A stretch of 38,343 bases of DNA from a virus, in the IMG/VR virus record IMGVR_UViG_3300022924_000025, positions 1-38,343 of that record; one strand, written 5' to 3'. The position numbers were made by a program, and so were the translations under genes. The notes under the pieces were generated by a model. It was given only the letters and a program-made list of their open reading frames with translations, was not told the origin of the DNA and made no database searches. Of this stretch, positions 31,035-36,210 are shown in pieces. Positions within the stretch are counted from its first letter, which is position 1. Every line of letters begins with the position of its first letter.

Positions 31035-31071
31035 TTCTCTCTTAATTTAATTGGTTAATACTTTTAAATTA

Positions 31072-31135
31072 ACCCGCCCTATCGATGCTACTCACAATTC
31101 ATACCCCTATGTTTTAAGTTAAATCGGAGGCGGGT
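31072..31135 (-). repeat. inverted repeat in a gene-free gap
   Basis: ACCCGCC (31072-31078) and GGCGGGT (31129-31135) are 50 bases apart in the GC-rich edges of an AT-rich gap (31035-31141). The minus-strand RNA could pair them. The left edge also shares TTTTAAATTAACCC with the gap at about 30662. No gene is seen in the gap. Confidence 0.45.
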
Positions 31136-35620: not shown

Positions 35621-35652
35621 AGTTAAATGTTTAGAATGTAAATGTAATAAAA

Positions 35653-35682
35653 AAATCCTTACTCGGTTAAAAGTAAGGATTT
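35653..35682 (-). terminator. terminator after the tRNA genes
   Basis: AAATCCTTACT (35653-35663) and AGTAAGGATTT (35672-35682), a perfect 11-bp stem with an 8-nt loop, followed on the minus strand by T7. It is 8 bases after the end of tRNA-Arg. Confidence 0.88.
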
Positions 35683-35689
35683 AAGATTG

Positions 35690-35761
35690 TGCGACTACCA
35701 AGATTCGAACTTGGAACGTTCGGGTCGTAACCGAAAGGTTTATCCGTTAGCCTATAATCGC
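35690..35761 (-). tRNA. tRNA-Arg (anticodon ACG)
   Basis: Acceptor GCGATTA with TAGTCGC (one G-T), anticodon stem TTCGG/CCGAA with loop TTACGAC, T arm CCAAG TTCGAAT CTTGG. Discriminator A; CCA is not encoded. A34 would be deaminated to inosine, reading CGU, CGC and CGA. D stem has one mismatch. Confidence 0.87.
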
Positions 35762-35765
35762 GTTG

Positions 35766-35847
35766 TACGCCTGAGAGGATTTGAAGCTCCAAAGGTAACG
35801 GGTCTAAGCCGCCAAGCTGTGCCAATTCGCAATGAACCCACAGGCGC
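35766..35847 (-). tRNA. tRNA-Leu (anticodon TAG), divergent
   Basis: Acceptor GCGCCTG with CAGGCGT (G-T at the first pair), D loop with GAATTGG, anticodon loop CTTAGAC on a stem with two G-T pairs, T arm around TTCAAAT with one mismatch; 82 nt as for class II. Discriminator A; no CCA. Weak stems leave open that it is partly degenerate. A37 is unusual for this tRNA. Confidence 0.7.
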
Positions 35848-35851
35848 GTTT

Positions 35852-35925
35852 GGGTGTTTTCGGGATTCGAACCCTGCTTTTCGGGTTCACAGTCCGACGT
35901 TCTAACCGAATGAACTAAAAACACC
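35852..35925 (-). tRNA. tRNA-His (anticodon GTG)
   Basis: Acceptor GGTGTTT with AAACACC, D arm with TTCGGTTAGAACG, anticodon loop CTGTGAA, T arm CAGGG TTCGAAT CCCG. Discriminator C as expected for His. CCA is not encoded. Confidence 0.9.
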
Positions 35926-35929
35926 ATTT

Positions 35930-36002
35930 GTTTCAGATACTGGATTCGAACCAATTCAAGCAGAGTCAAAGTCTGCGATGCTACCGTTACATCAATCTGA
36001 AA
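35930..36002 (-). tRNA. tRNA-Gln (anticodon TTG)
   Basis: Acceptor TTTCAGA with TCTGAAA, anticodon stem GCAGA/TCTGC with loop CTTTGAC, T arm with TTCGAAT. Seven perfect acceptor pairs. No encoded CCA. Reads CAA, probably CAG by wobble. Confidence 0.9.
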
Positions 36003-36080
36003 TGTGCGCTTTTGGAACGGCTGCGCTTACCGGTTTATTTCTCGACTCCAAATGTGAATAAACAGACCTTTTCTGTTTTG

Positions 36081-36153
36081 TCGGGGTTGCAGGACTCGAA
36101 CCTACAGTCTCTCGCTTCCAAGGCGAGCGCGTAACCAATTTTGTCAAACCCCG
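36081..36153 (-). tRNA. tRNA-Pro (anticodon TGG)
   Basis: Acceptor CGGGGTT with AACCCCG (C1-G72 and A73, Pro identity), anticodon stem CTCGC/GCGAG with loop CTTGGAA, T arm GTAGG TTCGAGT CCTGC. No encoded CCA. Position 37 is A, not the usual G. First tRNA of the cluster, 9 bases after a hairpin. The spacer 36003-36080 has no clear tRNA. Confidence 0.88.
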
Positions 36154-36162
36154 TAAATAAAA

Positions 36163-36187
36163 AAAGTCCTCCAAATTGGAAGACTTT
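36163..36187 (-). terminator. hairpin terminator before the tRNA cluster
   Basis: AAAGTCCTCCA (36163-36173) and TGGAAGACTTT (36177-36187), 11 bp with one mismatch, loop AAT; T-rich minus-strand continuation of seven T. It ends the short unit started at 36285, or lets some transcription through to the tRNAs. Confidence 0.75.
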
Positions 36188-36210
36188 AGCGCTGTGCATA
36201 TATTTTAAAA

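Follow-up and report, generated by a model that had tools for sequence, protein, structure and literature searches.

A recurrent set of phage tRNAs for the C-first codons carries A37 where sampled Bacteroidia tRNAs carry G37

The window analyzed in this study, a 38,343-base IMG/VR virus record, was found to carry five minus-strand tRNA genes for Pro, Gln, His, Leu, and Arg, the isotypes of the C-first row of the genetic code, and the same set recurred in other viral records. All five window tRNAs had A at position 37, where the corresponding housekeeping tRNAs of sampled Bacteroidia have mostly G. A tentative reading, given slightly less than an even chance of being right, is that the phage brings these genes as a C-row reserve, which stays intact when the G36-G37 tRNAs of the host are selectively inactivated. 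The features of the array were as follows.

35646 to 35683, minus strand: hairpin and T run resembling an intrinsic terminator, immediately following tRNA-Arg, read from the sequence
35689 to 35761, minus strand: tRNA-Arg(ACG), found by ARAGORN and Rfam; anticodon loop TTACGAC, A37
35766 to 35847, minus strand: unusual tRNA-Leu(UAG), placed by hand; short variable loop, G1-U72, A37
35852 to 35925, minus strand: tRNA-His(GUG), found by ARAGORN and Rfam; anticodon loop CTGTGAA, A37
35930 to 36001, minus strand: tRNA-Gln(UUG), found by ARAGORN and Rfam; anticodon loop CTTTGAC, A37
36002 to 36079, minus strand: Pro-Gln spacer of 78 nt with predicted hairpins
36080 to 36153, minus strand: tRNA-Pro(UGG), found by ARAGORN and Rfam; anticodon loop CTTGGAA, A37 (G37 in Bacteroidia hosts); CCA not encoded
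36157 to 36190, minus strand: hairpin and T run, reaching to within about 4 nt of the start of tRNA-Pro, read from the sequence

The preliminary description of this DNA had claimed that the five tRNAs cover the C-first row, and this held. The minus-strand genes for Arg(acg), His(gtg), Gln(ttg), and Pro(tgg) were called by ARAGORN, and an Rfam scan of the whole window matched the same four at 52 to 54 bits, with no further tRNA and no other isotype. The fifth, Leu(TAG), scored below the thresholds of both programs and appeared in relaxed ARAGORN as a mis-framed Leu(tag); it was established by covariation. Together, the five tRNAs can read CUN, CCN, CAN, and most CGN codons, with CGG uncovered, and conversion of ACG to ICG in tRNA-Arg would need TadA. 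The T-stem of tRNA-His was one base short on its 3' side.

The tRNA-Leu(UAG) had about 8 extra nt ahead of the D-stem and lacked the long class II variable arm of canonical bacterial tRNA-Leu, a short loop being present instead in the window and in most Leu genes of related cassettes. It belongs to a family shared with five relatives (L199, L472, L478, L517, and L544), in which six pairs in the acceptor, D-, and T-stems were changed on both sides, 97.5% of cells were paired, and the covariation score was reached by 0 of 500 shuffles. Because of this covariation, the gene was judged to encode a real, unusual tRNA, with its cloverleaf apparently kept by compensatory changes. The window copy may be weak or decaying, since the conserved G53-C61 pair is replaced in it by C-C. 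Another unusual form of Leu(UAG), in which more sequence precedes the D-arm, was seen in L495, L504, L533, L538, L505, and L667; this stretch, TGACGTAAAAGCG, was complete only in L667, since ARAGORN had clipped the remaining genes at their 5' ends.

The Pro-Gln spacer showed one apparent compensatory change between the window and L199 (TTTGGA/TCCAAA versus TTCGGA/TCCGAA). It was present only in these two and was rejected as an element common to the cassettes. At the same place, between tRNA-Pro and tRNA-Gln, a circularly permuted tRNA-like element was observed in L184 (also L671/L672) and L537 (also L683), with a shorter form in L214, and was absent from the window. It began with the T-arm, followed by the 3' half of the acceptor, a loop, the 5' half of the acceptor, and the D-arm, and its two ends paired into an anticodon stem. 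The stems of L184 and L537 differed compensatorily, and the rotated sequences were accepted by ARAGORN at a relaxed threshold. Nothing matching permuted phage tRNAs was found in the literature searched.

To find related cassettes, IMG/VR was scanned with a His anchor and then with a Gln-to-His pattern. Exact Pro, Gln, His, Leu, and Arg arrays were identified in at least nine other viral contigs (L213, L214, L494, L495, L503, L520, L523, L533, and L537), while L538 had the five isotypes plus one additional Pro, and in L199 and L472 the unusual Leu accompanied four called tRNAs. Rfam matched exactly five tRNAs, the size of the cassette, in G043 (34 kb), G047 (42 kb), G048 (28 kb), G049 (57 kb), G052 (26 kb), and G053 (39 kb), so that the set comprises the only tRNAs in these six viral records of 26 to 57 kb. 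One carrier, L503/G049, is an isolate, Cellulophaga phage phi19:1 (KC821607). It is a different phage from that of the window but has the same five isotypes in the order Pro-Gln-His-Leu-Arg, all with A37, as the only tRNAs in its 57 kb. Four of its five tRNAs are listed in the GenBank annotation, from which tRNA-Pro(TGG), at about 31057 to 31131 of KC821607 (L503:3383-3457), is absent.

The C row accounted for 20% of tRNAs in a viral sample anchored on Asn, and with the row frequencies of that sample, the chance that all three further tRNAs of a Gln-plus-His array belong to the C row was about 0.008. Among the five-tRNA Gln-His arrays of IMG/VR, 9 of 12 were C-row only, against about 0.008 expected for each, although the cassettes are partly homologous and these counts overstate independence (L495 and L533, like L520 and L523, have identical or near-identical genes in common), so that the calculated tail probability is too low to be read at face value. 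The five-tRNA set is thus not due to chance, in agreement with the earlier claim that a random set would rarely fill one row. C-row-only sets made up 17 of 46 arrays with A37 anchors and 0 of 13 with G37 anchors, the latter being the Gln-His arrays, each with up to 12 tRNAs, found in a scan anchored on G37; C-row sets with the host-like G37 were therefore rejected.

The window portal was 42% identical to that of Nonlabens phage P12024S, and the terminase resembled those of Flavobacterium and Bacteroides phages. Because both resemble proteins of phages of this group, the host is likely a member of the Bacteroidota. No tRNA was found in the closest TerL relatives (69 to 82%), and conservation of the array among these was rejected. 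The refuting condition named in the preliminary description, relatives with random tRNA sets, was not borne out: the TerL relatives have none, but other phages carry the same set.

No gene family was present in all carriers at an E value of 1e-6, and a nuclease or repair enzyme common to all of them was rejected on this ground. G048, G052, G055, and G066 formed one group by their terminase and portal (phrog_6681 and phrog_6547 types); the portal was 37% identical to that of Flavobacterium elemo phages and matched Cellulophaga phages as well. A second terminase was common to the window, G043, G054, and G057, and G047 had a different major head protein and no close isolate. By their proteins, the carriers, mostly flavobacterial phages, belong to two lineages at least, and probably to three, with nothing in common but the tRNAs. 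The cassette order also varied (Leu-Arg, Arg-Leu, or Leu first), and at least three forms of Leu gene occurred. Window tRNA-Pro was 99% identical to its best phage match and tRNA-Gln 90% identical to that of L213, while tRNA-His reached at most 76% identity to any phage. Single tRNA genes therefore look as though they were exchanged between cassettes while the set stayed.

At position 37, A was found in 15/16 Pro, 11/11 Leu, and 15/15 Arg tRNAs of the cassettes; the A37 of the relatives' His and Gln tRNAs was ascertained, as the anchors required it, while Pro, Leu, Arg, and the window itself were unaffected. In the Asn-anchored viral background, A37 was found in 2/30 Pro tRNAs, and phage Pro tRNAs with A37 also occurred outside these arrays. 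Housekeeping Pro, Leu, Arg(ACG), and His tRNAs of sampled Bacteroidia had G37, and most Gln-like matches had G37 too, two genomes apart from a cassette having A37; isotypes were assigned to pattern matches by loop and arm shape rather than full gene models. All five window tRNAs therefore differ in this anticodon-loop base from the same isotypes in the sampled Bacteroidia, which may not include the host of the window. Compared with those G36-G37 tRNAs, the cassette tRNAs keep G36, carry A37, and are diverged elsewhere; this difference, as judged from the gene sequences, appears to be new.

The motif of the tRNA methyltransferase TrmD is G36-G37. Bacteroidia housekeeping His, Gln, and Arg(ACG) appear to have G37, unlike those of E. 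coli, and therefore the whole C row would be TrmD substrates. In Salmonella, m1G37 is reported in all tRNAs reading C-first codons except the CAN readers (PMC13191261), whereas the CAN readers of Bacteroidia have G37 too. Nothing connecting m1G37 or TrmD with phage tRNAs was found in the literature searched.

TRNAs of the same type were also found on bacterial chromosomes. At least seven Flavobacteriaceae genomes carried an additional array in which A37 C-row tRNAs were mixed with other isotypes (seen in L577, L604, L615, L616, L564, L583, L601, and L628), and several of these arrays adjoined RtcB, RF-1-domain, Band_7, or RlaP genes. Their Leu(UAG) lacked the long arm, as in the window, which thus shares both A37 C-row tRNAs and a short-arm Leu(UAG) with the RtcB-linked reserve arrays. 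No RtcB, RF-1-domain, or Band_7 gene was found beside the window array in Pfam scans of the window genes. Phage tRNAs were mostly closer to the chromosomal A37 tRNAs than to housekeeping ones, of which one or two per isotype, and none for Gln, were compared. C-row-only A37 sets stood beside ordinary bacterial genes in three Bacteroidota assemblies, a Cytophagales MAG (L896), Sporocytophaga (L897), and Bacteroidetes UBA8524 (L895), where mis-binning is possible. The A37 Gln-His tandem was rejected as a general bacterial feature, being present in 2/395 Bacteroidia genomes, both of them prior matches.

If the array is a spare set, host G36-G37 tRNAs would be selectively inactivated during infection, most likely by an anticodon-loop nuclease of host defense as the candidate agent. 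The phage A37 tRNAs would escape because the recognized base differs, and C-first codons would thus still be translated from the phage set, which would rely on host CCA addition, synthetases, and TadA. Rescue is favored because all five phage tRNAs have A37 against G37 in Bacteroidia and because their A37 kin adjoin RNA-repair genes. The set was also kept despite changes of order, at least three Leu types, and exchanged genes; against this, the TerL relatives live without any tRNA, and the window Leu looks damaged. On these grounds the earlier idea of rescue from a nuclease that cuts G36 tRNAs gained weight. We know of no G36-G37-specific nuclease, and none was found among the window genes with Pfam and PHROGs, nor did the window genes scanned with these include an RNA ligase, RtcB, TrmD, or any anticodon nuclease. 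A broader proposal, which we hold to be on the unlikely side, is that an undescribed anticodon-directed weapon or defense of Bacteroidota recognizes G36-G37 (or m1G37) tRNAs as a class, shutting a whole row of the code, and that phages and some bacteria independently keep A37 spares.

The same base difference would allow independence from m1G37. A37 tRNAs would need no methylation by TrmD, and if infection lowers SAM or blocks TrmD, new host C-row tRNAs would stall or frameshift while the phage set decodes normally. The set coincides with the tRNAs that have the TrmD motif in sampled Bacteroidia, where, beyond the Salmonella m1G37 set, the CAN readers are included. However, tRNAs already methylated would be expected to retain m1G37, so that its loss within one infection needs turnover, and no TrmD inhibitor or SAM-degrading gene was recognized in the window; we regard this explanation as improbable. 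Much the same weight is given to simple inheritance, in which a small Pro-Glu-Gln-His-Leu-Arg block was passed around between flavobacterial phages and Glu dropped out of it several times, with no selection on the row. Such a block exists in L544 and in phi38:1, most cassettes show a related order, and a spacer often persists between Pro and Gln; part of the five-set may indeed derive from this older block. (In phi38:1, tRNA-Pro and tRNA-Glu, at KC821614 38141-38297 or L907:8142-8298, overlap an annotated hypothetical coding sequence, gp071.) However, the set has persisted through changes of order and of Leu gene type, G047 departs from the others in order, in its class II Leu, and in its diverged genes, C-row-only sets also occur in the bacterial-looking assemblies, and complete C-row sets dominate the five-tRNA arrays. 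Codon supply, in which late translation in an AT-rich host is held back by a shortage of the host's C-row tRNAs, is quite improbable in our view. C-first codons were the rarest row in the phages, at 9 to 15% in carriers, and in the sampled AT-rich hosts, and their tRNAs may accordingly be scarce. Carriers nevertheless used CNN codons no more than relatives without tRNAs (10 to 15%) or Bacteroidota (13 to 20%, from small samples of contigs that may not represent the host of the window), and this explanation leaves A37 and the link to RNA-repair loci without a cause. Compensation for a high demand for C-row codons was therefore rejected as unsupported; the codon data weigh less against low host supply, the form suggested in the preliminary description.

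Phage tRNAs that evade tRNA-targeting defense have precedents (van den Berg 2023, PMC10264068; retron evasion, PMC11555353). As in those systems, phage and host tRNAs differ here in the anticodon loop, and replacement of cleaved host tRNAs is proposed; unlike them, the window set corresponds to a single row of the code and a single base, position 37, and the nuclease is a candidate only. The literature searched yielded no row-wide tRNA set linked to base 37. In Anabaena, a reserve trn operon shares one TrcR regulon with RtcB and a slipin gene (PMC10272220). The flavobacterial A37 arrays, adjoining RtcB, RF-1-domain, and Band_7 genes, resemble that association of a reserve set, translational stress, and RNA repair, but the Anabaena operon is bacterial and TrcR regulated, with 26 tRNAs of many isotypes, and the window array has no repair gene nearby. 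A C-row composition is also known outside phages. The E. coli argX-hisR-leuT-proM operon consists solely of C-row isotypes, like the window set, but is a housekeeping operon of another phylum that lacks Gln and has other Arg and Leu anticodons.

The reason for tRNA genes in phages is a long-standing open question. The minimal set described here, found repeatedly in unrelated phages, is defined by a single chemical feature common to its members, G36, and by a single base that differs from the hosts, A37. With phi19:1 of Cellulophaga baltica as a cultured carrier, an attack on C-row tRNAs becomes directly testable.
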